A DNA stretch of 49,143 bases from a virus. Both the position numbers and the translations under genes were made by a program. The stretch lies in the IMG/VR virus record IMGVR_UViG_3300020000_000022, positions 1 to 49,143 of that record; one strand, written 5' to 3'. Position 1 is the first letter of the stretch. Each line of letters opens with the position of its first letter. Positions 3,206-47,950 of the stretch are shown here, one piece after another. The notes beneath the pieces are model-generated. The model ran no database searches and had not been told where the DNA came from. It saw only the letters and a list, made by a program, of their open reading frames with translations.

Positions 3206-6096
3206 TACGTCACCACCGCACCAAACATCGGAAGAAGCGTTGCCGTTTCCACCGGGAGTTCAGCGGTTAAATCCGTCCACGTCGTGCCGTCACTGGTTAC
3301 CAGGAGGACCGCGTCATAGGGCTGTGACCCGCCGACCGCGTAAATCTCCGCATTGTCCAGTTGCAGCAGAATGTACGGCACCAGCGTTGACCCGGTCCCG
3401 GTATACGCCGTGGACCATGCCGAGCCGGTGTACTTCTCAATCTTCGAAATAGGCGTTGTGTCGTTGTTCCAGTACGACGCGTAGAGGTTGGCACCCAGCA
3501 CCGTGAGTGCGAGATAGCCGTTGTTCACCTTCGCGGTCCCACCGGACCCTGTCTGCGAGGTCGTATACGCGCCTGCGGTATCCCGCGCGAGCACTTTGCC
3601 CCGCGAGCCCGCTGCGTTGTCCGTCCCCACGTAGAGGATGCCCTTGTACGACGCCATCGACGTCACGCCGCCCGCCGAACTGGACGAGGTTGCGTAGTCC
3701 TGGGTCCACGCCGTATCAATGCCCGGGCGGAAGTAGTAGACCTTGCCCACCGTGCCGATACTGTTGTTCGTGCCACACCAGAGCCGTCCCATATGCCAGC
3801 ACAGCGCATACGGCATTTCACCGTTGGCAAACTTCACGCCCAGCGGAGTCAGCACCCCCGTCTCCGGGTCCAGCTGCATCACGCGGCCGTTCCAGTCCGA
3901 CGAGGACGTACCCGAGTCCCACGTCGTCAGGTAGACGGTCCCGTTCGCCGCCAGCATCGACATCACCGCTTTCGGGATGACGTTCGCCGTCGTCGGCGGT
4001 AGTCTGCACAACTCTTTATCCGACCGTCCGTCGAATACGCGAATCGGCGGATAGTCCGTGCCCACCGTGTAGCCGGATGCCGGATAGACCATGTGGTTGT
4101 TGATGTTGCATCCCGCAGCGGGCGCTCCACCGTACACCGCCATGTTGCCAATCGCGCACCACGTAGAGAGCTTCGCCCATGAGCGCGGGTCAGCCGGACG
4201 TCCACCGCTCACGATGGTGTCCTGGTTGCCGAACCCCGCGGTCGAGAGATACCAGCCATTGGCCGTCGCCGGACCCGCACACGCAACCCAGCCGGACCCC
4301 GGAGAGTCAATCTGGTATACGCTCAGGCCGAACGCCGGATAACACCACCATTGGAACGTTGGGTCGAACCCGGCGTTCACCCAGCCATCCCCTGGTGACG
4401 TCTGCGAGACTTGCGTCGTTTCGATATCCGAAGTTGTTCCGGTGCCCAAGTCGAGCGGGGTCGTCAATACCCACGTCGGCGGCGAAATCGGAGCCCCACC
4501 GTCGCCCGCTTGGAACCCCCACCACCAGAACGGCTGGCCTGTCGTCTGGGCAATCGCACTCTGGAACGAAATCGCGTTCGCCCCAATCGCGACGATACCC
4601 GTTGTCGGCACGTTGTTGTTGCCGCCCGGGATGCTCACGCGCGTAGAGCTTGTGCCCGTGTGCGTCGGACCGCGGAAGATACCGCCATCCGTGAACCCGC
4701 TGCTGTTTCCCTGTCGGCCGAACACGAGTGTCGGCGTGAACGGTAGCCCGCTCACCACCTTGGGGAGACTGCCCGGGGTCGTCGCTTGTCCGCTGGTAAA
4801 GACGTTCAGTCCTTGAAAGACCGTATCCCCACCCACAAACGCCATGAAGTTGTACTTCCGGTTGTTCGTGTTGACACTCTGGTTCGCGCCTGCCGCGTCT
4901 ACCACCGTGAACCCGTCCGTCGCGGTGAATCCGGTAATCATCGTGGTCACGGGCACCGAACCGCTCGCGCCCGCCTGCAAGTCCACCGACGTCGTACTCG
5001 GAATATCCGTAGACTTATAACAAACGCCGCTTCCCCAGACCCACACGTGAGTCAGGGCAACCGGGTTAGCTGTTCCCGCACTTGGCGCGTTGACCGTGCG
5101 CGTTCCACCCGCAAACGTCAGCGTAACCGGGTTCGACGTCGCCGGGATATACGCCGGAGAGATAGACCCAACCGTCGAACTCACATAGGTGAAGATGTAG
5201 GTGTTAGCGCTGCCATCCGTAACTTGGATACCGGACATGCTGGGGTCGAACACAATGCCACTAAAGTAGTTGACGACGCTAGAGCCGTGAGTGGCGAGGA
5301 CGCTAAGCGCTGAACTGCCAAGTCCGACATAGGAACCCACACGCATGTAGCGATTGTCGAAGGTAGAATCCTTACACACCACAGCAACATAGGACACCCC
5401 CGAGGTATTCGCGTAGGTCAGTGAGCTTGCACCCGCTGAGACGTGGAACCCGCCTGCGACGAAATCTACAATGCCGTCTGCCAACGGATTGGACCCGATG
5501 CCCGCAACCGCGGTGCCCGTCATCATCGACCCGTTGTGCCGGAAGAAGTTCGCATCTCCGGTGCCGTTCCCGTTCGCTCCACCCACACCCCAGATAGCAA
5601 CCACGCCGCTATCGAGTGCGAAGGACGTCGGGATAAGCCGGTTCGCAGTCCCGTCTCCGGTCCAGGTCACAATTTCCTGGTCGTACTGCCCAAGTCCGGC
5701 CACGGTCAGAAACACGACCTCAACCTGCCACGCCCACGTCACCGTGCTGAACGTCTGGCCGTTCGGGTCCGTGTAGCTACTTGCGAGGGTTTGCACCCCG
5801 TTCTGCGTGCCGTCTGGCGTGATGGTCGTGCCATTCACCACCGACTGTGCCGCGACCGTGAACACGGCTGGAAGATTGCTGTAGTCCGCGGTGGTCGGGT
5901 TGTTCACCCAGTTCACACTGTATTGCGTGCCCAGTGCAACCGGGGAGATGCCGACGATGATGTTGGACCCTGCTGGGTCGGGCGTACCGAGCCCCAGGTT
6001 GTAGTCCGATTTAATCTGGTTATAAAGCGTGATGTCCGTGACGCGAAGACTCGCGGCCGGATAGAACTGAGCGGTAGGCGCGACGTAGTTAGACAT
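3205..6096 (-). CDS. Large tail protein with C-terminal beta-propeller-like repeats
   Basis: At 963 residues this is the largest protein encoded. The N-terminal third is Thr/Ser/Gly/Val-rich beta structure. The C-terminal third (about 690-963) contains repeated blade-like units such as GRLWCGTNNSIGTVGKVYYF, GILYVGTDNAAGSRGKVL and NLYASYWNNDTTPISKIEKY, typical of a beta-propeller or Kelch-like fold. It lies between two small tail genes, with TAATG overlaps on both sides. It probably forms a tail appendage or adhesion platform. No catalytic motif is evident, so a depolymerase role is not supported. Confidence 0.65.
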   Translation of the reverse strand: MSNYVAPTAQFYPAASLRVTDITLYNQIKSDYNLGLGTPDPAGSNIIVGISPVALGTQYSVNWVNNPTTADYSNLPAVFTVAAQSVVNGTTITPDGTQNGVQTLASSYTDPNGQTFSTVTWAWQVEVVFLTVAGLGQYDQEIVTWTGDGTANRLIPTSFALDSGVVAIWGVGGANGNGTGDANFFRHNGSMMTGTAVAGIGSNPLADGIVDFVAGGFHVSAGASSLTYANTSGVSYVAVVCKDSTFDNRYMRVGSYVGLGSSALSVLATHGSSVVNYFSGIVFDPSMSGIQVTDGSANTYIFTYVSSTVGSISPAYIPATSNPVTLTFAGGTRTVNAPSAGTANPVALTHVWVWGSGVCYKSTDIPSTTSVDLQAGASGSVPVTTMITGFTATDGFTVVDAAGANQSVNTNNRKYNFMAFVGGDTVFQGLNVFTSGQATTPGSLPKVVSGLPFTPTLVFGRQGNSSGFTDGGIFRGPTHTGTSSTRVSIPGGNNNVPTTGIVAIGANAISFQSAIAQTTGQPFWWWGFQAGDGGAPISPPTWVLTTPLDLGTGTTSDIETTQVSQTSPGDGWVNAGFDPTFQWWCYPAFGLSVYQIDSPGSGWVACAGPATANGWYLSTAGFGNQDTIVSGGRPADPRSWAKLSTWCAIGNMAVYGGAPAAGCNINNHMVYPASGYTVGTDYPPIRVFDGRSDKELCRLPPTTANVIPKAVMSMLAANGTVYLTTWDSGTSSSDWNGRVMQLDPETGVLTPLGVKFANGEMPYALCWHMGRLWCGTNNSIGTVGKVYYFRPGIDTAWTQDYATSSSSAGGVTSMASYKGILYVGTDNAAGSRGKVLARDTAGAYTTSQTGSGGTAKVNNGYLALTVLGANLYASYWNNDTTPISKIEKYTGSAWSTAYTGTGSTLVPYILLQLDNAEIYAVGGSQPYDAVLLVTSDGTTWTDLTAELPVETATLLPMFGAVVT

Positions 6097-6371
6097 TAGC
6101 TTGTCGGTCCTCTCCCGATATACAGGTTCCGCAATCCGGATGTACTCGTGTTCCGGAGCGGCAAGTCCGACCCTCCCAGGACCGACCCCTCTGTAATCGC
6201 ATCTGTGTTAAACGCGATGAGCCCCGGACGTTTCCGCAGAGCGCTAAACCCTGCTTCCACATCCGAGGCGGCATTCTGCGACTGGGCTAACTCATTGTCG
6301 CCCAGTTCCAGCGGGTCCTTATCGACGTTGACCCCCGCAAGGCCCATGTGAGTAACTTTGAGTTCAGCCAT
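6096..6371 (-). CDS. Small tail-associated protein resembling a hub N-terminus
   Basis: This is a 91-residue protein, MAELKVTHMGLAGVNVDKDP and onward. The pattern 'GVNVDKDPLELGDNELAQSQNA...FSALRKRPGL' resembles the N-terminal strand-exchange segment that I know from fused phage hub proteins, where it precedes the propeller. Here it is a separate gene, with the propeller-bearing hub gene one large gene downstream. Both neighbours are coupled by overlapping start and stop codons. It may assemble with the hub as a detached domain; this is inference. Confidence 0.55.
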   Translation of the reverse strand: MAELKVTHMGLAGVNVDKDPLELGDNELAQSQNAASDVEAGFSALRKRPGLIAFNTDAITEGSVLGGSDLPLRNTSTSGLRNLYIGRGPTS

Positions 6372-22167: not shown

Positions 22168-22343
22168 TGGCGTGGCAACGATTTCTCAACTCTCTCGACT
22201 CGATGGGCGGGCATCTGTTCATGCTCGCAATGGGCGTGCTGCTCGGATGCGTACTCGCTCATTTCGGCATTGCGGACGGGCACACCGTCATCATCGGTAG
22301 CGGAGGCGCGCTCCTCGCCCTCCTCCGCTCCAAGTCCGCCTAG
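22167..22343 (+). CDS. Holin-like small membrane protein
   Basis: This is a 58-residue protein, MAWQRFLNSLDSMGGHLFML and onward. Two hydrophobic segments (about 17-34 and 40-52), separated by a short polar turn and followed by a basic tail (LLRSKSA), give a holin-like or channel-like topology. It is the last gene of the plus-strand cluster and overlaps the previous stop as TAATG. The endolysin lies elsewhere, next to another candidate holin. Confidence 0.6.
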   Translation: MAWQRFLNSLDSMGGHLFMLAMGVLLGCVLAHFGIADGHTVIIGSGGALLALLRSKSA

Positions 22344-22367
22344 CTAGTTACAACACCAACCAATACG

Positions 22368-22391
22368 GGAAGGGGTCATGGGACCCTTTCC
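22368..22391 (+). terminator. Hairpin ending the plus-strand accessory operon
   Basis: GGAAGGGGTC and GACCCTTTCC pair over ten positions with one wobble and a four-base loop, 24 bases after the last stop. No T-run follows, so it is a weak intrinsic or Rho-assisted terminator. Confidence 0.55.
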
Positions 22392-22532
22392 TGTTCGATA
22401 AAAAATCGCGCACCTACCCTTCGGCCCCAGGAAGCCACCGGCCTCCGAGGGGGTCCCCCCACCTATCATGTAGAGCGCTTTGCATTGCAGAGTGCTTTGG
22501 TAAATCACTTTATATCGCAAAGTAGAGCGCAA
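22392..22532. other. Intergenic region between convergent operons
   Basis: No gene is seen. The stretch is more AT-rich than its surroundings and holds the direct repeat GTAGAGCGC at 22470-22478 and 22522-22530, with partly complementary GCGCTTTGC and GCAAAG segments between. Two facing terminators flank it. The repeats could be a protein-binding site; nothing else is supported. Confidence 0.4.
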
Positions 22533-23547: not shown

Positions 23548-23550
23548 GGG

Positions 23551-23772
23551 TTACCGCCTCTTCGTAACGGGATGCGGACCATGCGTGCGCAATCCTGGAC
23601 CCGGCGTAATCTCTTCGATATCTTCAATCTCCGCGCTACCATCCGCGATAGTGAACGCATCGCTACGCCAATCCATTTCGCTAACCGTCTCTTCTGCGTC
23701 GGCTACGCTAACCGCCTTCACATCCACATATGCGCGAGTGCTGTAGTAAACCGACACGCGATAAACAGGCAT
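23551..23772 (-). CDS. Small hypothetical protein
   Basis: This is a 73-residue protein, MPVYRVSVYYSTRAYVDVKA and onward. A beta-alpha-beta start leads to an acidic segment and a disordered Pro/Arg tail. The N-terminal pattern (YRVSV...VKAVSVADAEETV) resembles small phage proteins of unknown function. The start is TAATG within the preceding gene's last codons, giving a short overlap. Confidence 0.55.
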   Translation of the reverse strand: MPVYRVSVYYSTRAYVDVKAVSVADAEETVSEMDWRSDAFTIADGSAEIEDIEEITPGPGLRTHGPHPVTKRR

Positions 23773-23777
23773 TATCG

Positions 23778-23912
23778 TTACCTCGTAATCGAAGGAAAGT
23801 AGAGACGTTGACAGACCTTGCACGTCACGAACAGTCGAATCGATGAGCGCAGGCCCTTTAACGGGATATGCTTTGCGTGTCCAGGGCGGTAGTGGATGAT
23901 AAGGCGCTTCAT
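23778..23912 (-). CDS. Basic microprotein with CxxC
   Basis: This is a 44-residue protein, MKRLIIHYRPGHAKHIPLKG and onward, ending CKVCQRLYFPSITR. It is strongly basic with a single C-x2-C pair. The start overlaps the previous stop as ATGA. It could bind RNA or DNA, or pair with a second half-site to hold zinc. Confidence 0.5.
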   Translation of the reverse strand: MKRLIIHYRPGHAKHIPLKGLRSSIRLFVTCKVCQRLYFPSITR

Positions 23913-24113
23913 ACAACCCGCACCGAGACTAGAAACAATTCGTGTCCTTGCACGCTATCGGTATCGATGTGTGTTCCGTTGTTGTTGTAGTTGCGTTCGT
24001 CTTCGGGATCATGCCTGCGCATCGGCAAGTGTGACGTTTGACCGTATGACGCGGCGCCGTCCACTTTGTTTAAAGTAACGGACGATGCGGTAAATCCGTG
24101 GTTCACCTTCCAT
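23909..24113 (-). CDS. Small conserved phage protein interrupted by a +1 frameshift
   Basis: Started at the ATG at 24113 behind GGGAGAG, the first frame reads MEGEPRIYRIVRYFKQSGRR, then RVIRSNVTLADAQA, and stops at 24009. This matches the start of a small phage family I know as 'YRIVR...GRRRVI...LTLAEAQAH.DPE'. Skipping one base just before that stop gives HDPEDERNYNNNGTHIDTDS in the next frame, ending at 23909. Either a base is missing (mutation or sequencing error) or +1 frameshifting is used. The joined product is about 68 residues. Confidence 0.5.
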
Positions 24114-24303
24114 AGCTGCTCTCCCTTGGTGTCACGTAATCGTCACACGTGGGACAGTAAAAGCTGTCCGCTTCCAGGTGGAGCAAGGTGCCGTCCTTGG
24201 GACAATGCTTACCGTGAGCATGTGGCGCATAGCTGACGCCGGACCATTGCGCGCTATACGTAGGGTCACCGGATTTCTTCGTGGTCGGATGTCGGCCGTT
24301 CAT
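24103..24303 (-). CDS. Small zinc-ribbon protein
   Basis: This is a 66-residue protein, MNGRHPTTKKSGDPTYSAQW and onward. A Cys before PKDG and the later CPTC can coordinate zinc together with nearby His residues. It overlaps the next gene by 11 bases. Probably nucleic-acid binding or an adaptor; unknown. Confidence 0.55.
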   Translation of the reverse strand: MNGRHPTTKKSGDPTYSAQWSGVSYAPHAHGKHCPKDGTLLHLEADSFYCPTCDDYVTPRESSYGR

Positions 24304-24305
24304 GG

Positions 24306-24548
24306 CTAGCGTTTCGTCTCAAATGAGAGTGGCGGCGCATCACTGCCCGGTGTGCGCGCCGACAACAGTACTCTACCGTCTTCGGTCGCGTATCCACTAA
24401 CTTCCAGCGCTCGCACGATACCACCTTCGGAGCGTTGCAGAATGGTCAAGCTAAATCCGCCGTCCTTCGAACGTGGTCCCGTTTCGACGTTGGATTTTGA
24501 ACCATCTACGCTGAGTTCTAGCCAAAAGTTGCGCACATTTCTAGGCAT
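24306..24548 (-). CDS. Conserved small phage protein (GPRSKDGGF motif)
   Basis: This is an 80-residue, mainly beta protein, MPRNVRNFWLELSVDGSKSN and onward. The central motif ETGPRSKDGGFSLTILQR looks like a family I associate with small genes of lytic phages, with no assigned function. Three bases separate it from the following gene. Confidence 0.55.
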   Translation of the reverse strand: MPRNVRNFWLELSVDGSKSNVETGPRSKDGGFSLTILQRSEGGIVRALEVSGYATEDGRVLLSARTPGSDAPPLSFETKR

Positions 24549-24551
24549 GGT

Positions 24552-25399: not shown

Positions 25400-25400
25400 A

Positions 25401-25604
25401 TTAACGTCCCTCTAAAAGATATTGCCAGCCTCCGCGGTCAAGACGTTTAGCGCATCGGATAGCGCCTTCGATATCCCCTCTCCAGCCCACTACAATCGCG
25501 TGTGTTGGGCCGTTAACGCGAACCTCATACCCGCGCATAGCGAAACGTGAGCGATAGACGTAAACGTGTTGACCCTCCCACACGATACGCTTCTCGGCAT
25601 CCAT
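25401..25604 (-). CDS. Small hypothetical protein
   Basis: This is a 67-residue basic alpha/beta protein, MDAEKRIVWEGQHVYVYRSR and onward. The preceding gene ends directly at its start, and its stop (TAA) is one base before the next ATG. No domain recognised. Confidence 0.55.
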   Translation of the reverse strand: MDAEKRIVWEGQHVYVYRSRFAMRGYEVRVNGPTHAIVVGWRGDIEGAIRCAKRLDRGGWQYLLEGR

Positions 25605-25829
25605 TTATGCGTCACTCCTAGCCCGCAGGGATGCGCGCACTAGCCTATCCCGATGCGCAGCACCATTGGAGATAAGCTTACGCGTGCGGATATTGTACTT
25701 TTGCGCATCGGTCAGGGTTGGTAGGGTAACCCGATACCCGCTGTAGTCCGTGCCGCATCGCGGGCATACCATGTCGGCGCCTATTTCCTGGAGTTCGACG
25801 GACGACATGAGGCATTCTCCACAATTCAT
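25605..25829 (-). CDS. Zinc-ribbon small protein
   Basis: This is a 74-residue protein, started at 25829 behind GGAGG, MNCGECLMSSVELQEIGADM and onward. C3-x2-C6 and CPRCG form a clear zinc ribbon, followed by a basic tail (RDRLVRASLRARSDA). It is typical of nucleic-acid or protein adaptors. Confidence 0.6.
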   Translation of the reverse strand: MNCGECLMSSVELQEIGADMVCPRCGTDYSGYRVTLPTLTDAQKYNIRTRKLISNGAAHRDRLVRASLRARSDA

Positions 25830-25903
25830 CGCAGTAACCTCCACACTAGCGCGCCGACTATCGACGCGCCGATATACAGCAACAGCGCAAGGCCAGTATT
25901 CAT
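25826..25903 (-). CDS. 25-residue transmembrane microprotein
   Basis: Nearly the whole protein (MNTGLALLLYIGASIVGALV, then WRLLR) is one transmembrane helix with a basic end. Its start overlaps the previous stop as TAATG and its stop overlaps the next start as ATGA, so it is knitted into the operon. It could inhibit or modify a host membrane protein. Confidence 0.5.
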   Translation of the reverse strand: MNTGLALLLYIGASIVGALVWRLLR

Positions 25904-26118: not shown

Positions 26119-26269
26119 GCCCAATTAGATTGCAGTCGGCATACCATCTGCACTACTCAATAGAATCAACAGCTTAGCAACCATCCGACTACCACACCGT
26201 GTGCTGTTTTTCAACACGTGTTACGGAATGGGACACCACTGTCCTAGCGCGTCCCCAATTCCGGACGTT

Positions 26270-26285
26270 GGCATGAATCGTGCCA
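26270..26285 (-). promoter_or_regulatory. Partial sigma-54-like motif before the accessory cluster
   Basis: On the minus strand TGGCACGATTCATGCC keeps the -24 GG and -12 GC at the right spacing but departs from TTGC. It points toward the gene starting at 26118. Weak evidence on its own; it belongs to the recurrent TGGCAC set. Confidence 0.3.
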
Positions 26286-26344
26286 TAGGGAATCCACTCG
26301 GCATGTACCGTTCCAACATACCTGTACCTTCGCCCTATGGACAA

Positions 26345-26368
26345 TCGAGCACTCGACCGTCGAGCACT
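26345..26368. repeat. Direct repeats TCGAGCACT with embedded inverted repeat
   Basis: TCGAGCACT occurs at 26345-26353 and 26360-26368, a 15-base period. CTCGAC-C-GTCGAG (26352-26364) lies between. This is the layout of an iteron or operator pair. Confidence 0.5.
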
Positions 26369-26416
26369 GCACGTATCCCGGCGTCGGCCTGACGGCCTCG
26401 CCTCGCGCCTTGATTG

Positions 26417-26466
26417 GGGTGTCTGTAGGAAATCCTAGCCAGGGGGACCAGGGTGTCTGTAGGAAA
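26417..26466. repeat. 16-base direct repeat GGGTGTCTGTAGGAAA
   Basis: Exact copies lie at 26417-26432 and 26451-26466, a 34-base period. They lie outside any gene, so selection on protein does not explain them. Confidence 0.6.
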
Positions 26467-26616
26467 CGCCAGGACGCCCCACCAGGGCTGCGGAGTGCAT
26501 CTCCGAGTGATGGGGCGCCCTCACGTGTGCGCTGGCGTTACCGGCGCGTGCGGGTCATGGTGTGCCCTCCCAAGAGGTCGCCCGAAGGCGGCTCACAGAG
26601 GGAGTGTGCAAACGCC

Positions 26617-30297: not shown

Positions 30298-30407
30298 GCC
30301 CCTGTGTCCATCGTTGGAAGTACTACCACAACGCCACGGGCACCTGTTCGTACAAAGTCTGCCTGCTCTGCGGGCAAGTGGTGTGGTTTGCGAAGGAGTG
30401 CAAATGA
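30294..30407 (+). CDS. 37-residue zinc-finger microprotein
   Basis: The sequence MSPCVHRWKYYHNATGTCSY, then KVCLLCGQVVWF, carries C and His near the start and C-x2-C later, giving a plausible single zinc finger. Start and stop overlap both neighbours (ATGA twice), tying it directly to the kinase gene. Confidence 0.5.
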   Translation: MSPCVHRWKYYHNATGTCSYKVCLLCGQVVWFAKECK

Positions 30408-31333
30408 AGAAACTGATTATGTGCCAGGGTCTCCCCGGGAGCGGCAAATCCACGTGGGCGGAAGAACAGCGGCTCCGCGCGTTCGAAGCGTGGGACCCGG
30501 ACCGGCCGGATGACCTCGTGGTCCTCGTGGTGAACAAAGACGCCATTCGTCGGCAGTGGGAATTAGGCGGCTGGGTGTGGTCGCGAGAAAACGAAAAAGC
30601 GGTCGTGAAAGAACGCGATGCACGCATCCAGCATTCCCTCCTGGACTGGAACAACGTCATCGTGATTAGTGATGATACGAATTTCGGCTATCGCCACAAG
30701 ACCCGATTGGAACAGTTGGCACGGGAAGCGGGCGCCGAGTTTGAAATCAAACGCTTTGACGTCCCGGTTGCCGAATGCATTCGTCGGGACGCCTTGCGAC
30801 TGGGGAAAGCCCAGGTGGGGGAGACGGTCATTCGGGGAATGGCGCACCAATTTGGGATTAGCGCGTCTCTGGGCTACCCGCCCGCGGCACCCCTCCTGAC
30901 GCCTGTAGACGCGCCCTACGCCATCATCTGCGACCTGGACGGCACCCTCTCGCTGTTCAAGGAACAGGGGCACCGCGGGCCGTATGACGCCTCGCGCTGT
31001 GCCGAGGATGACGTCAACGTGCCGGTACGGACTTTGCTTGAAATCTACTACCGTACCCAGCACGACCACATCATCTACCTGTCCGGTCGCGAGGACACCT
31101 ACCGTACTCAGACGGAGACGTTTCTGAGGGGGCACCACTGTCCCCCGGGTGCCCTCTATATGAGACAGGGCGGCGACCATCGCAAGGACTGGGTGGTGAA
31201 GGGTGAGTTGTTCGATGCCCACGTGAGGGGACGGTACAACGTGCGCTTTGTCCTCGATGATAGAAATCAAGTCGTGGACTACTGGCGCCATATTGGCCTG
31301 ACCTGTTTCCAGGTCGCGCCGGGAGCGTTCTGA
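30404..31333 (+). CDS. pnk: Polynucleotide kinase-phosphatase (T4 Pnkp type)
   Basis: This is a 309-residue enzyme, close to T4 Pnkp in length. The kinase domain has P-loop GLPGSGKS at 9-16 and D46/R49 as likely counterparts of the T4 catalytic Asp and Arg. The phosphatase domain has D177-L-D179-G-T (the aspartate nucleophile of the HAD/DxDxT family), SGRED at 227-231 and LDDRNQV around 284-290. It phosphorylates 5'-OH and removes 3'-phosphate or 2',3'-cyclic phosphate ends of RNA, preparing them for the ligase encoded next. This fits repair of host-cleaved tRNA. Fused bifunctional layout is intact. Confidence 0.88.
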   Translation: MKKLIMCQGLPGSGKSTWAEEQRLRAFEAWDPDRPDDLVVLVVNKDAIRRQWELGGWVWSRENEKAVVKERDARIQHSLLDWNNVIVISDDTNFGYRHKTRLEQLAREAGAEFEIKRFDVPVAECIRRDALRLGKAQVGETVIRGMAHQFGISASLGYPPAAPLLTPVDAPYAIICDLDGTLSLFKEQGHRGPYDASRCAEDDVNVPVRTLLEIYYRTQHDHIIYLSGREDTYRTQTETFLRGHHCPPGALYMRQGGDHRKDWVVKGELFDAHVRGRYNVRFVLDDRNQVVDYWRHIGLTCFQVAPGAF

Positions 31334-31455
31334 TGCTGACACCGACTCCACTACCGCCAACGCCGCTCACCCTACCGCCCGTGCGACTGCCGGACCTCGC
31401 CTGGGTGCCGACGCCGCCATTCAAGAAGGTGCCGGTTCCTGTGAGGGTCCAGTGA
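31333..31455 (+). CDS. Proline-rich micro-ORF between kinase and ligase
   Basis: This is a 40-residue protein, MLTPTPLPPTPLTLPPVRLP and onward, about one third Pro. It starts as TGATG at the kinase stop and overlaps the ligase start, so it is in the coupled chain, but composition is very low in complexity. Could be a linker peptide or merely a reading-through coupling device. Confidence 0.4.
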   Translation: MLTPTPLPPTPLTLPPVRLPDLAWVPTPPFKKVPVPVRVQ

Positions 31456-32723
31456 GCGCACTGCTGGTCCAGGAGAAGCTGAGGATGGGGGTTGCGCTGG
31501 AGACCTTGTGCCAGCCGCCCTTTGCGCTTATTGCGAAACGGCATGCGGAGTTTCCGAATCTCGTGCTGTTGAAGTACAACCAGATTGAATCCGACATGGA
31601 CAACCCGCTGGTCTGCCAGTGCCGCGGGGTCATCCTGGACGAAGCGGACAACTGGGCTATCGTCTCACGGCCGTTCGATAAGTTCTGGAACGCGCACGAG
31701 GGGCGCGCGGCCACGATTGACTGGACCACAGCCCGGGTGCAGGAGAAGTTGGACGGCTCGCTCATCCAGATGTATTGGTACCGCGGGTTATGGCGAGTAG
31801 GAACGTCGGGCACGCCGGACGCGACTGGCCGGGTCAACGGGTTCAACCTGACGTTTCAGGAATTGTTTTGGGAAGCGTTCGAAGAGATGCGCTTCGACGT
31901 GCCGCCCGCCGAGAATGCCCGTTCCGTGACGTTCCTGTTCGAACTGATGTCACCGTATAACCGCGTGGTGACGAAGCAGAGTGGGCACACGTTGCGGCTT
32001 ATCGGCCTGCGGGAGCGCACCGGGAAGGAATACCCGACCCGGAGCTACGCGGGCTACAACCCGGTTCACGAGTTCGCCCTGACGACCCCGAGCGAAATCG
32101 AGGATACCTTCCTCCACATGGACCCGCTGGACCAGGAGGGCTATGTCATCGTGGACGCGGCGTTCAACCGCATTAAGGTGAAGCATCCAGGGTATGTGGC
32201 GCTGCACCATCTGCGGGACAACCTCACGCCCAAGGGTATCTTGGACGTGGTGAGGAAGGGTGAGACCGGCGAAGTGCTCGCGAGCTTCCCGGAGTGGAAG
32301 GACGAGTTCGCCCGCGTCCAACGTGCCTATGACTGGCTGGTGGAGCGGATTACGCTGCGATGGCGGATGGCGCAAGGTCAGCCCACCCAGAAGGACTTCG
32401 CCATTGCCGTGAAGGACTTCCCCTACAGCGGCGTGCTGTTCGCACTGCGCAAGGGTACCGTCCAGAGTGTCAAAGAGGCGCTCGTGGACGCGCGACTGGA
32501 CCGACTCATGGAATGGACAACAGGAGGGCAGAATGGCGACAGCGAAGCGAGTAGCGCAGGACCGGAAAGCGACGGCACGCACGGGGGTGGAGTATCACAA
32601 GACGGAAATCATTCGGTCGGTGAACGGTCATACCGTGAGCACGAACGTTCTGGAGTCACACTACAAGCCAGTAGCCGTGACCGAATACCAAGGACCAGCC
32701 GGACCGCATCCAGCTGGATATGA
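31452..32723 (+). CDS. rnl1: RNA ligase (T4 Rnl1 type)
   Basis: This has up to 423 residues with a GTG start overlapping the previous TGA. The nucleotidyltransferase motif I is K99-L-D-G-S, the AMP-accepting Lys at the same residue number as in T4 Rnl1. Further motifs are FLFELMSPYNRVV (motif III/IIIa), EGYVIVDA (IV) and IKVKHPGYVALHH (V). With the kinase-phosphatase it would reseal broken tRNA, an answer to anticodon nucleases such as PrrC. The last about 60 residues (Gly/Ser/Asp/His-rich) overlap the next gene by 191 bases and look like overprinted or lost-stop tail, not a functional domain. Confidence 0.85.
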   Translation: MSALLVQEKLRMGVALETLCQPPFALIAKRHAEFPNLVLLKYNQIESDMDNPLVCQCRGVILDEADNWAIVSRPFDKFWNAHEGRAATIDWTTARVQEKLDGSLIQMYWYRGLWRVGTSGTPDATGRVNGFNLTFQELFWEAFEEMRFDVPPAENARSVTFLFELMSPYNRVVTKQSGHTLRLIGLRERTGKEYPTRSYAGYNPVHEFALTTPSEIEDTFLHMDPLDQEGYVIVDAAFNRIKVKHPGYVALHHLRDNLTPKGILDVVRKGETGEVLASFPEWKDEFARVQRAYDWLVERITLRWRMAQGQPTQKDFAIAVKDFPYSGVLFALRKGTVQSVKEALVDARLDRLMEWTTGGQNGDSEASSAGPESDGTHGGGVSQDGNHSVGERSYREHERSGVTLQASSRDRIPRTSRTASSWI

Positions 32724-32781
32724 GTTTGGAGGAGGCCCGAGCCCTTCACACTCGGATGGGACGCTTTACGGGTGCCCATGA
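32533..32781 (+). CDS. Small protein nested in the ligase 3' end
   Basis: This is an 82-residue protein, MATAKRVAQDRKATARTGVE and onward, behind a strong AGGAGGG ribosome site. It has a basic N-terminus, a beta-rich middle (EIIRSVNGHTVSTNVLESHY) and a Pro/Gly-rich end. It shares 191 bases with the ligase frame and 62 with the next gene. Its coherent composition and ribosome site argue that this is the main coding frame here. Confidence 0.6.
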   Translation: MATAKRVAQDRKATARTGVEYHKTEIIRSVNGHTVSTNVLESHYKPVAVTEYQGPAGPHPAGYEFGGGPSPSHSDGTLYGCP

Positions 32782-32926
32782 CTGCTTCAGTGCGTTCAAG
32801 GAATTGGAGCGCGCCCTGTACTCGAAAATGAAGACAGGCGCGTCCACAGGACCGGACAACGCTTGTGCTGGGAAGCCGGATGACCCCAATAAGGTGTACC
32901 CCGAGCCTTCCAGCCTGCTCCGCTAA
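32720..32926 (+). CDS. Small hypothetical protein
   Basis: This is a 68-residue protein, MSLEEARALHTRMGRFTGAH and onward. The first half is well-formed helix (FSAFKELERALYSKMKTG), the rest is Pro/Asn-rich. The ATG overlaps the ligase stop, and about 62 bases overlap the previous gene, so three frames meet at 32720. It is the last gene before a promoter-like motif. Confidence 0.5.
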   Translation: MSLEEARALHTRMGRFTGAHDCFSAFKELERALYSKMKTGASTGPDNACAGKPDDPNKVYPEPSSLLR

Positions 32927-32928
32927 GC

Positions 32929-32944
32929 TGGCACAACGCTTGCA
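32929..32944 (+). promoter_or_regulatory. Sigma-54-like motif before the 33002 gene
   Basis: TGGCACAACGCTTGCA matches the -24/-12 consensus at all fixed positions. It lies 58 bases before the start codon of the next gene in the right orientation. A sigma-70 alternative (TTGCAA with a poor TACGCA) is weaker. Confidence 0.5.
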
Positions 32945-33001
32945 ATCATCATCTATGTACAGGTACGCAAGTTCGAACTCGCAAACAAGGAGAGTGTTAC
33001 T

Positions 33002-33856
33002 TTGGGTCTGAATCTGAAAAAGGGCGGCGGCGGTTTCCTGAACGGCGTGGACGGTGTTATCGCGGGGTACCGCTGGACCGACGAGTTCAACGGTGAGGCG
33101 TTCGTCCCCGGCAAAAAGCCCGGTACCAAGGATGACAAGTTCCACTCGCTGTTCCTCGAAATCAGCGCCCGCCTGGATGGCGCCGATGAGGATATCACGC
33201 AGAATTTGTTCGCGGGCAACGCGGACGAGTACGACTACGAAGACGACCAGACGCTCAAGAACGTGGAAGAGGATGCCGAATGCGGCATCAGCAACAACAG
33301 CCCCGCGGGCAAGTTCCTCGCGTCGTTGGTGGAGGCGGGCTTCCCGCTGAGCGCGTTTGGCGATGACCCGCTGACGGTGAACCTGGAGCCGATGGTAGGT
33401 ACCCGGGTGCGCTTCGGTCAGGCGGTGGTCATCGGTAAGGACGGCAAGCCGAAGAAGCGCGTGGCCAAGAAGGGCAAGTTCAAGGGCAAGGAATTCGATG
33501 ACACGACGACGGTCATCGAACAGGTCTACGAGCGCGCGGGCAAAGCCGGTAAGGCCAGCAAGACCGAGAAAACCGGCAAGACCAGCGGCAAGAAGGCCAA
33601 GGACGAGGAAGCGGACGAGAGCGATGATGTGGAGACGCTCGCGTCGAACTTTCTCATCAAGGTCGTGACGGCGGCGAAGGGCAAGCTGGCGAAAGCCAAG
33701 CTGTCGATGGCGCTGCTGAAGGAAGAGAACGGCATGAGCAAGCACCCGGAGCGCGAGCCGATTCGCAAGCTGCTCAAGTCGGATGACTTCCTGGAAACCG
33801 AGAACGGCTGGTCGTACGACGCGAAGAAGGAAATCATCACGGTAGACGTGGACTGA
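33002..33856 (+). CDS. Replication-cassette protein, probable DNA-binding accessory
   Basis: This is a 284-residue protein. It starts with TTG at 33002 behind AAGGAG, the best spaced start. The N-terminal 140 residues form an alpha/beta domain (GLNLKKGGGGFLNGVDGVIA onward), followed by a Lys/Gly/Thr-rich linker of about 50 residues and a helical C-terminal domain ending in a wing-like IITVDVD. It lies at the head of the recombination cassette, where a single-stranded DNA-binding or annealing accessory often lies. No family recognised; the SSB-like role is an inference from neighbourhood. Confidence 0.5.
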   Translation: MGLNLKKGGGGFLNGVDGVIAGYRWTDEFNGEAFVPGKKPGTKDDKFHSLFLEISARLDGADEDITQNLFAGNADEYDYEDDQTLKNVEEDAECGISNNSPAGKFLASLVEAGFPLSAFGDDPLTVNLEPMVGTRVRFGQAVVIGKDGKPKKRVAKKGKFKGKEFDDTTTVIEQVYERAGKAGKASKTEKTGKTSGKKAKDEEADESDDVETLASNFLIKVVTAAKGKLAKAKLSMALLKEENGMSKHPEREPIRKLLKSDDFLETENGWSYDAKKEIITVDVD

Positions 33857-33963
33857 ACGACTGTCGCCTAGTGTCTCGCGCCGCTAATGCGGGCGACCTC
33901 ACGGGCTGACCGGGAGCACGCAGGCAGCGTAGTTGCTGGTTTCCATGCGTGGGTTTTTACCTG

Positions 33964-34048
33964 GGCGTTCGTGCCCACTCGATACGCGAACAACGTGCGG
34001 TGTCCTCCGTCGGTGAACGGTGTGGGTGCAAATCCCAGGACGCCGCCA
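33964..34048 (+). ncRNA. tRNA-like element (acceptor plus T-arm) inside the noncoding region
   Basis: GGCGTTC (33964-33970) can pair with GGACGCC (34038-34044), with one wobble, to form a seven-base acceptor stem, followed by G and CCA. TGGG-TGCAAAT-CCCA forms a T-arm with a T-loop-like seven-base loop, and CCGT-CGGTGA-ACGG resembles a class II variable arm. No convincing D-arm or anticodon arm exists, and the loop lacks the second T, so this is not a functional tRNA gene as read. Confidence 0.3.
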
Positions 34049-34390
34049 AATATTGACTTAGGACGGAAGGTAGCGGGGGGTAGGTGGCCTCGTGGTTCCT
34101 GTGTCTCGGATGAACGTAAAGGCGCAAGCCGAGACTTCACATACCCCGCCACACCCGCGAGTGCATCGCGCCTGAGACTGGCTACGGATACCCCGGACCA
34201 GTTCCCGTGTGAGCGACGTCCTAACGCGCAGTCGCAGCATGAGAGACATGCTGGCAGGAGAGCGGCACCCAGTGCTGTGCTCTTGTGGAGGGTCTTAAAC
34301 TCTCCCGGCAGATTATCGAACGAGAGCGCACCGGAGTAGACGGGCATTGCGACCCGTCAACACTCAACACGACTCCGCTCTCAGCGACCA

Positions 34391-34422
34391 GGGGCGCACT
34401 AGCAAATAGGTTAGTGCGCCCC
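34391..34422 (+). terminator. Strong terminator at the end of the noncoding region
   Basis: GGGGCGCACTA and TAGTGCGCCCC form a perfect eleven-base-pair stem with a ten-base loop, followed by TTAAGTGTTT. It ends the upstream transcript 22 bases before the next start codon, whose ribosome site (GGAGGA) follows. Confidence 0.75.
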
Positions 34423-34444
34423 TTAAGTGTTTCCGGAGGACAGC

Positions 34445-34609
34445 ATGACACATGGTTTAGAGCGCACGAGTCTAAAGGGCGGGCCTTTTCTGGGCCGCTG
34501 TATCTACTGCGGGTTGGAGAATTTGTCCCCTCGTGCTGCGCTCGACTTGTGCGCGAAGGCACCCGCCCAAGGTCAGCAGGTGTTAGACGCTATCAAAGGT
34601 CCGCGATGA
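34445..34609 (+). CDS. Small protein with CxxC
   Basis: This is a 54-residue protein, MTHGLERTSLKGGPFLGRCI and onward, with C-x2-C (CIYC) and another Cys later, behind GGAGGA. It overlaps the nuclease gene by ATGA. Possibly a small zinc-binding adaptor for the cassette. Confidence 0.5.
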   Translation: MTHGLERTSLKGGPFLGRCIYCGLENLSPRAALDLCAKAPAQGQQVLDAIKGPR

Positions 34610-35187
34610 TTGTCACTCCCGTACTCAACCACGGCATCGACTTCCTCGCGTCGGACCTCGTGCGGTCGCCCGGTCTCCATGCGTCGGACATCTACGGCGA
34701 CCTCTACAAGCACCTAGAGCCGAAGCGCTACGACTACGGAGACGAACCCCCCAACCCCGTGCTGATGGCCCTGGGGACGGCGTGGGAAAACCACTTCGAA
34801 TATCTGCTGACGAAGGCGGGGTTCAAGATTGAGCGGCCGGGAGAGTTCATGAGCCCGCCGCCCCACAACGTTGCGTTCAGTCCGGACCTGTTGCAGTACA
34901 ACGGAGTCACGAAGCTTTGGGAAATCAAACTAACCTCGATGTCGGCCAACGATATGCCGACTGAGGTTGGAGACTCACTCCCGCCCAAGTTCAACAAGTA
35001 CCTCACGCAGATGAAGCTGTATGCGCGATGGTTGGAACTCTACGACGGTATGCTGGCGGTTGTGCTGCTCCACAAACCCTGGGACCCACAGTTCCGGCTG
35101 TTCCAGCTGCGCTGGAATGACCGCGAACTCATTGAGAACGAGCGCATGTGTTTGAACCACGCGCGCCACACTGGGAGGATAAAGTGA
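34606..35187 (+). CDS. PD-(D/E)XK nuclease of the Cas4/RecB-like type
   Basis: This is a 193-residue protein. A helix ALGTAWENHFEYLL (E61) precedes the catalytic D94 (FSPD) and E106-I-K108 (LWEIKLT), the PD-(D/E)XK core. After it, a Tyr/Leu-rich helix (KYLTQMKLYARWLELYDGML) fits the family. It lies between a zinc protein and genes for recombination, so it probably acts as an exonuclease or end processing enzyme. It lacks visible Cys for an iron-sulphur cluster. Confidence 0.75.
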   Translation: MIVTPVLNHGIDFLASDLVRSPGLHASDIYGDLYKHLEPKRYDYGDEPPNPVLMALGTAWENHFEYLLTKAGFKIERPGEFMSPPPHNVAFSPDLLQYNGVTKLWEIKLTSMSANDMPTEVGDSLPPKFNKYLTQMKLYARWLELYDGMLAVVLLHKPWDPQFRLFQLRWNDRELIENERMCLNHARHTGRIK

Positions 35188-46912: not shown

Positions 46913-47950
46913 TTACTGTCCCCAATCCGCGCCCAAGTCCTGCTTGGGAGCCGCACCACCGGACGGGGTGATACCAAGTTCCGCATCGGCTGCGTCCAAT
47001 TCCGCGCTGCTCTTGGCATTCGCGTACTTGGTGAGCCAACGTTCAAACGCATCCAACGCGCCGCTCATCGCGGCCGGAGTCTGAGCGGTGTTAATCAGTT
47101 TGTCGAAGCGTTCCGCCATTGCTTGGTTGGAGCCGCCGCGCGCTCCACCGTGGACCATCGCCATATTGCTCTTGACGAGAGACGCTTGGTTCTTGAAGTC
47201 GCTGAAGGCCCGAGCCGCATCCGGCGCCATGAAGTACTTGTCCATGCCGGTCCCGGTGAGGGCATCGTTGAACCGTCCCGCAACCGGGCCAGTCGCGCCA
47301 TGCTTCTCCAGCGTCCCGAGAATCGCGCGGAGTTTCGGAATCTCCGAGAGCCCCACTTGCGCGCCATGCTCCTGCGCCAGTACCGCAGGCGGCGTCGGCA
47401 CACCACTGAGCGTCATTTGCCCCTTCGCGTTGAACGACGGACGCATCGTGACGCCCGACCCGCCGCCTCCCGGCTGCCCGCCGTTAATCGTTTGGAGCAA
47501 CGCCGAGTTGCCTTTGGTCACGTCCTCACGCGCAACCGCTTCGTTCTTCGCCTTGGCGTTCTCCAGGGCAATCGCGTTCTCCCCCTGCGCCTTGGCCGCT
47601 GCAACGTTCGGCATCGTGGCGAGTGCGAGCTTGTTCGCAAACTCGTCCTGCCGCTTTGCCGTGACATCCGGACGACCGTAGGTGTTGACCTCGTCGTTCG
47701 TGTCTTGGATGTCCTTGATGCGCGCCTGTTCGTCCACGCCGAAGTCCGGCGACTCGTCCAGGGTAGACTGCTCATCCTGGACATCCGCATTGGTCGCCCC
47801 GCTAAACGTATGCCGCGGGTCGCCCGCCTGGAGTTCTAGGGAGCGCTTCATGTCGAGTAAGGCTTGCTCTTTCCGCCGCCGTGCTGCTACGAGCCCGTTA
47901 TCCGCGTTGGCATTCAACGACAGATTGGCGAGCGTATCTACTGCACCCAT
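46913..47950 (-). CDS. Internal virion/ejection protein
   Basis: This is a 345-residue protein, MGAVDTLANLSLNANADNGL and onward. The first half is helical coiled coil with many Ala, Glu and Lys (LALATMPNVAAAKAQGENAI), the second contains a Gly-rich linker and a further helical domain. Typical of head-internal proteins ejected with DNA. No enzymatic motif such as lysozyme is visible. It is followed directly by the third ejection gene. Confidence 0.6.
   Translation of the reverse strand: MGAVDTLANLSLNANADNGLVAARRRKEQALLDMKRSLELQAGDPRHTFSGATNADVQDEQSTLDESPDFGVDEQARIKDIQDTNDEVNTYGRPDVTAKRQDEFANKLALATMPNVAAAKAQGENAIALENAKAKNEAVAREDVTKGNSALLQTINGGQPGGGGSGVTMRPSFNAKGQMTLSGVPTPPAVLAQEHGAQVGLSEIPKLRAILGTLEKHGATGPVAGRFNDALTGTGMDKYFMAPDAARAFSDFKNQASLVKSNMAMVHGGARGGSNQAMAERFDKLINTAQTPAAMSGALDAFERWLTKYANAKSSAELDAADAELGITPSGGAAPKQDLGADWGQ

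Follow-up and report, generated by a model that had tools for sequence, protein, structure and literature searches.

The DNA analyzed here (the window), 49,143 bases long, is a complete virus record of IMG/VR. Inside its plus-strand replication block lies a gene-free stretch (Table 1) that is preceded by a gene for a 284-residue protein and followed by a small zinc-ribbon-like open reading frame (ORF) and a nuclease gene. Among PDB structures, the AlphaFold2 model of the nuclease matches 4ic1 (SSO0001; E 1e-7), which we take to be a Cas4, and lambda exonuclease (E 1e-5). Downstream of the nuclease are genes for a Sak4-like AAA protein, an ERCC4-type nuclease and a family A DNA polymerase (PolA). 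The relatives of this phage, all uncultured, were collected with profiles of the nuclease and the polymerase, and the order 284-residue protein, gap, nuclease, AAA/Sak4-like protein, ERCC4-type nuclease and PolA recurs in most of the family. The closest relative, L008, encodes a nuclease with 79% amino acid identity. The 284-residue protein has no Pfam or PHROGs match and its AlphaFold model has no confident match in the PDB, and "SSB-like" is for this protein a label of convenience only. The earlier note, which was made from the sequence, had placed the stretch between a replication protein and a nuclease; the nuclease is supported by the fold match, whereas the replication-protein label, with neither a family nor a fold match, is unproven. 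Small genes appear to shuffle around the gap site, given that the zinc-ribbon-like ORF, which is not the next gene in L008, is found at another locus in L036 (1819-1977, 74% identity). In L009, an Endonuclease VII/HNH-like gene, as read from the sequence, is inserted in the corresponding gap (3862-4314). Directly upstream of this locus, the window also encodes a T4 Pnkp-like protein and a T4 RNA ligase 1-like (Rnl1) protein; RNA ligase 1 was found in none of 17 related phage records by a search that does detect the ligase in the window genome.

Table 1. Features in and around the gene-free stretch (positions in the window)
Feature	Position	Strand	Basis or remark
T4 Pnkp-like 5' kinase / 3' phosphatase	30404-31333	+	PF25109, 8e-46
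T4 RNA ligase 1-like (Rnl1) protein	31452-32723	+	PF09511, 6e-14
Upstream gene, 284 aa, heads the conserved order	33002-33856	+	tblastn synteny, 14 relatives
Gene-free stretch	33857-34444	+	inside plus-strand replication block
Possible hairpin CACGCA...TGCGTG, then GGTTTTT	33917-33958	+	read from sequence; weak
tRNA-like element, 50 nt, no anticodon arm	33999-34048	+	descriptor scan, three-way-junction fold, position
Body, diverged, modestly structured	34049-34315	+	z -2.2; 44% identity to L008
Nested helix quoted in the earlier note	34073-34149	+	in minimum-energy fold; not conserved in L008
Conserved hairpin, stem ACTGG/CCAGT around invariant 15-nt CTACGGATACCCCGG	34177-34202	+	
Conserved 3' module	34316-34388	+	90% identical to L008; z -3.0
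Terminator-like hairpin, 14 bp	34390-34423	+	inverted repeat; pair comparison with L008
Ribosome-binding site GGAGGA of next gene	34435-34440	+	last conserved bases before window and L008 diverge
Small zinc-ribbon-like ORF, 54 aa	34445-34609	+	
Cas4 / lambda-exonuclease-like PD-(D/E)XK nuclease	34606-35187	+	AlphaFold2 model against PDB

The stretch is very probably noncoding, because the codon scores of its ORFs are negative and no ORF homologous to them was found in the equivalent stretch of L008. The negative scores extend to all ORFs inside the stretch, including those of 150, 159 and 113 aa, against +35 to +189 for the neighbouring genes, and there is no PHROGs match, in agreement with the earlier view that the interval holds no protein gene. 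The L008 stretch, of 665 nt, is equally gene-free, its largest plus-strand ORF being at most 49 aa. The further statement that this is the longest gene-free stretch of the genome depends on the threshold applied and is not firm: 1-559, 25400-25902, 26125-26616 and 23548-24551 are comparable or longer.

No Rfam model matches the stretch, either at the gathering threshold or at E <= 10. The proposed link to GOLLD and ROOL found no backing from the covariance models: that of GOLLD (RF02032) gave no matches at E <= 10, and that of ROOL (RF03087) gave none in a search that included no positive control, the scans with all Rfam models being negative as well. A self-splicing intron was considered and rejected, as no Rfam intron model matches. 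BLAST searches of the stretch against phages and plasmids, at the DNA and protein levels, yielded no match. IMG/VR was also scanned for exact 16- and 17-mers, and the one real relative to emerge was L008, the other matches looking like chance. Covariation is based on two clear members only, the window and L008, and is accordingly thin; when MAFFT aligns the whole region end to end with L008, the result has meaning at the 3' end only.

The stretch as a whole folds better than chance (z -4.2 and -4.1 in two runs), with most of the excess residing in the last 115 nt (z -6.7); the 5' part, 33857-33998, has a z of -1.3. Elsewhere in the window, two other 200-nt segments of the plus strand, 22201-22400 and 47601-47800, also fold with unusual stability (z -4.4 and -3.8, respectively). 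The possible hairpin in the 5' part may be the counterpart of a terminator-like hairpin located 5' of a tRNA in L008 (4271-4298). The identity of the body to L008 is at the level of shuffled sequence, and the L008 body folds no better than chance (z -1.0). The nested helix is present as described, GCGGGG (34073-34078) pairing with TACCCCGC (34142-34149) around GTCTCGG (34103-34109) and CCGAGAC (34129-34135). The only conserved block found in the body is the hairpin at 34177-34202, which matches L008 in 19 of 20 positions, a match equalled or exceeded in 1 of 10,000 shuffles. In L008, the identical loop is closed by a GCGGG/CCCGC stem; both sequences adopt the identical two-storey fold, with two pairs changed on both sides and none broken.

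The most telling feature of the stretch, which the earlier note did not mention, is the tRNA-like element. Its acceptor stem, GGTGTCC/GGACGCC, is paired in all seven positions (one G-U), and its 3' end consists of a discriminator G and an encoded CCA (GCCA). The D arm is CCG-TCGGTGAA-CGG, with the elbow GG, and the T arm is TGGG-TGCAAAT-CCCA, and the element folds as a three-way junction. A descriptor of this architecture has its sole match on both strands of the window here; in 2.97 Mb of loci, it otherwise retrieves only complete tRNAs with an anticodon arm, namely those that ARAGORN lists. When the region was shuffled 20,000 times with dinucleotides preserved, the descriptor matched once, a figure that is optimistic since the descriptor was written after the element had been seen; the scan of the loci, which was clean, is a better control. 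As expected for an element that lacks the anticodon arm, the tRNA programs are silent on it: ARAGORN reports no tRNA in the window and RF00005 has no match there, while 14 of 14 control genomes match. The bases GC that precede the element (33997-33998) can pair with its discriminator G and C74, and this pairing could hinder RNase P.

At the corresponding site, L008 carries an intact tRNA-Asn, likewise with an encoded GCCA and followed by a similar short A-ATTGA motif immediately 3'; it differs from the window element in having an anticodon arm and in its stem sequences. If the two are homologous, both partners have changed in 6 of the 7 acceptor pairs with pairing kept throughout, which would speak for selection on structure. 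A split or permuted tmRNA was rejected, the L008 tRNA at this site being complete. Two further phages have related features. In L028, a T-loop hairpin, CCCGG-TTCGAGT-CCGGG, followed by ACCA, lies just after the stop codon of the upstream gene (2771-2793) and is a possible tRNA remnant at the corresponding site. In the more distant phage L068, a hairpin is directly followed by a tRNA-Asn upstream of the polymerase gene (6182-6348).

At the opposite end of the stretch, conservation is of a different order. The segment 34316-34438 is 86% identical to 4742-4868 of L008, and 90% identical in the part 5' of the terminator-like hairpin, compared to 64-73% DNA identity for the flanking genes and chance level for the noncoding sequence on either side; judging from these alignments, the 3' module is the best-conserved DNA of the neighbourhood. 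Its helices are P0 (TCG/CGA), P1 (GAGAGC/GCTCTC), P2 (GGAGT/ACTCC) and P3 (GACGGG/CCCGTC), the last with the loop CATTGCGA, and it includes an A/C-rich single strand, AACACTCAACACG. The CAUNGCGN hairpin of the module is too common as a stand-alone motif to be diagnostic. A resemblance of 22 nt to the L008 tRNA, in its D/anticodon part, is a probable coincidence, with neither a T arm nor a CCA.

The hairpin that follows the module had been described as a perfect eleven-base-pair terminator before a ribosome-binding site. Its arms are in fact perfect over 12 nt (34390-34401 and 34412-34423), within a 14-bp covarying stem, and it lies just 5' of GGAGGA and the ATG at 34445; its tail, CTTAAGTGTTT, is poor in U, and a strict terminator scan calls none. 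Comparison with L008 shows 10 pairs unchanged, two changed on both sides, two on one side and none broken; one control reaches this count in 65 of 500 cases, so that it is not strongly exceeded and, with two sequences only, the count is suggestive.

A covariance model of the 3' module founded on the window and L008 (138 and 143 bits in these two) was run over 1.12 Mb. Two further matches, on the reverse strand, reflect the palindromic terminator. One more, full-length match (16 bits, E 0.94) is found in L016 (4442-4560), where it has the orientation of the L016 version of the upstream gene and starts 3 bases past the stop codon of that gene, with tRNA and body both absent. Since the syntenic gaps account in total for approximately 0.5% of the bases searched, a chance location is unlikely; by sequence and position, this is a probable, not proven, third copy of the module. 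The model was confined to two sequences because P1 of L016 is shifted by two bases, making a three-sequence alignment unsafe. Other relatives have different strong hairpins at the corresponding place (z -6.8 in L013, -3.6 in L036 and -3.3 in L028). L010 (4370-4440) and L013 (1216-1330) have in common one such hairpin, GCCCGTCCT...AGGACGGGC, the inner part of which is conserved, and z reaches -6.8 (L013).

In general, the comparison with L008 yields evidence for pieces of conserved RNA structure rather than for one continuous ornate RNA, given that the sequence between the elements is at chance similarity and folds barely better than shuffled sequence. Of the large structured RNA proposed earlier, what stands is a noncoding, structured, tRNA-associated phage locus with a terminator-like end and with parts that are conserved or covary in a relative; the single large ornate RNA does not follow from a body of this kind. 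GOLLD is borne by phages and combines a tRNA neighbour and a variable 5' region with a conserved 3' region, and ROOL, also phage-borne, is often found near tRNA genes (PMC12286853). The stretch shares the GOLLD layout, with a tRNA or tRNA-like element at the 5' side and a 3' module that contrasts with a chance-level body, but it is shorter, its body is weakly structured and the GOLLD model does not match. With ROOL, it shares the phage context, the nearness to a tRNA and a similar length, again with no match to the model. sRNAs derived from 3'UTRs, such as SdhX (PMC6393394), likewise comprise a structured RNA after a coding gene and before a terminator, with the difference that processing in the phage locus is putative. 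On this basis, the stretch is best placed among the tRNA-associated noncoding RNAs of phages, as a variant outside any named family.

We tentatively interpret the stretch as a phage noncoding RNA that is headed by a tRNA-like element, terminated at its 3' end and probably cut from the operon transcript by tRNA-processing enzymes, and consider this the leading explanation, albeit with limited confidence. A scan for sigma-70-like promoters in 32700-34700 found none, and the succession of a tRNA or mimic, a structured RNA and a terminator-like hairpin without a recognizable promoter suggests that these enzymes free the RNA from an operon transcript of which it forms part. The operon transcript would run through the stretch, and the tRNA-like element, unable to decode, would be retained as a processing signal. 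RNase P would read its 5' side and tRNA 3'-processing enzymes would cut after the CCA, releasing a downstream RNA of about 380 nt (approximately 34049-34430) that ends at the terminator-like hairpin. In this RNA, the 3' module, with the CAUNGCGN hairpin and the A/C-rich single strand, would be the active core, most likely a protein-binding site or a base-pairing, sRNA-like segment, and the body may be a tolerant scaffold.

The role of the element as a processing signal is suggested by its retention of the parts that RNase P and RNase Z read (acceptor stem, T loop, D-loop GG and CCA) without the decoding part. tRNA mimics with degenerate anticodon arms are read by these enzymes through the elbow, as in mascRNA (PMC11693755), and the descriptor scan and the fold reveal in the phage element the acceptor stem, T arm, D-loop GG and 3' CCA of a mascRNA-type mimic. 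The human mascRNA and menRNA (from MALAT1 and MEN-beta) are also tRNA-like, lack a normal anticodon arm and are joined to a noncoding RNA (PMC11693755); there, the noncoding RNA is upstream of the mimic, whereas in the phage locus it is downstream, and the anticodon arm, abnormal in the human RNAs, is wholly missing in the phage element, the processing of which is putative. By analogy, with mascRNA as the precedent, the element is best explained as a processing signal. Against the tRNA-headed reading are the thin covariation, the weak U tract, the leader pairing, the probable L016 module without a tRNA or body, and the unconserved body.

A close rival, which we regard as possible but doubtful, is a cis-acting element: the 3' module and the terminator-like hairpin would separate the upstream gene from the nuclease-polymerase genes as a structured 3'UTR, or as a partial terminator or attenuator, no free RNA would act, and the tRNA-like element and body would be an insertion upstream. 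Judging from the probable L016 copy, which directly follows the upstream gene without a tRNA or body, existence of the module as a 3'UTR element is possible. The weak L016 match, the different strong hairpins in L013, L036 and L028, and the conservation that extends into the ribosome-binding site of the next gene are all consistent with this alternative, as is a possible pairing, read from the sequence, of GCGCAC in the module with GTGCGC in the 3' arm of the terminator; that antiterminator pairing is, however, just 6 bp long. A gene-specific leader is unlikely because the next gene differs between the window and L008, and, with its invariant loops and single strand, the module seems to go beyond a terminator.

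It is unlikely that the locus is no more than a tRNA gene in decay with ordinary spacer behind it, the terminator hairpin alone being functional. The intact tRNA-Asn in L008, the chance-level similarity of the body and the possible T-arm remnant in L028 would fit such decay, but the remaining stems of the tRNA-like element are all fully paired and its CCA is intact, unlike in random decay, and conservation is higher in the 3' module than in the genes. A new class of large ornate RNA akin to GOLLD and ROOL, which might form a multimer or a cage and have a body conserved in structure only, seems very improbable: the architecture, as in GOLLD (tRNA neighbour, variable 5' and conserved 3' region, phage; PMC12286853), and the whole-region z of -4.1 point that way, whereas the z of the body in both sequences (-2.2 and -1.0), the single conserved hairpin found in it and the failure of the GOLLD and ROOL models to match argue against it. 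Least probable of all is a DNA-level element, such as a replication origin or protein-binding site, despite the location among replication genes and the inverted repeat, because the region (61% GC) has neither iterons nor an AT-rich stretch, the cumulative GC-skew minimum is elsewhere (near 27-29 kb), and an RNA accounts better for the tRNA-like element and the covarying hairpins.

For the tRNA-headed RNA that we favour, the repair genes of the window suggest a further, rather speculative possibility. Phages classically counter anticodon nucleases with T4-type Pnkp and RNA ligase 1 (PMC2610378), and a link between tRNA repair and a tRNA mimic that has no anticodon is attractive, although it comes from one genome. 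The mimic might be the head at which the phage's own noncoding RNA is processed, or it might act as a decoy for a tRNA-directed host defence, alongside Pnkp and Rnl1, and the released RNA might then represent a new class of phage RNA, a combination that we consider fairly unlikely. To our knowledge, neither the function nor the origin of GOLLD and ROOL, large phage RNAs that adjoin tRNAs, is known. If the proposed interpretation is true, the intact tRNA in one phage and the mimic in its relative would make a small test case for the origin and excision of such RNAs, and the 118-nt module and 50-nt mimic are short enough for direct in vitro tests.
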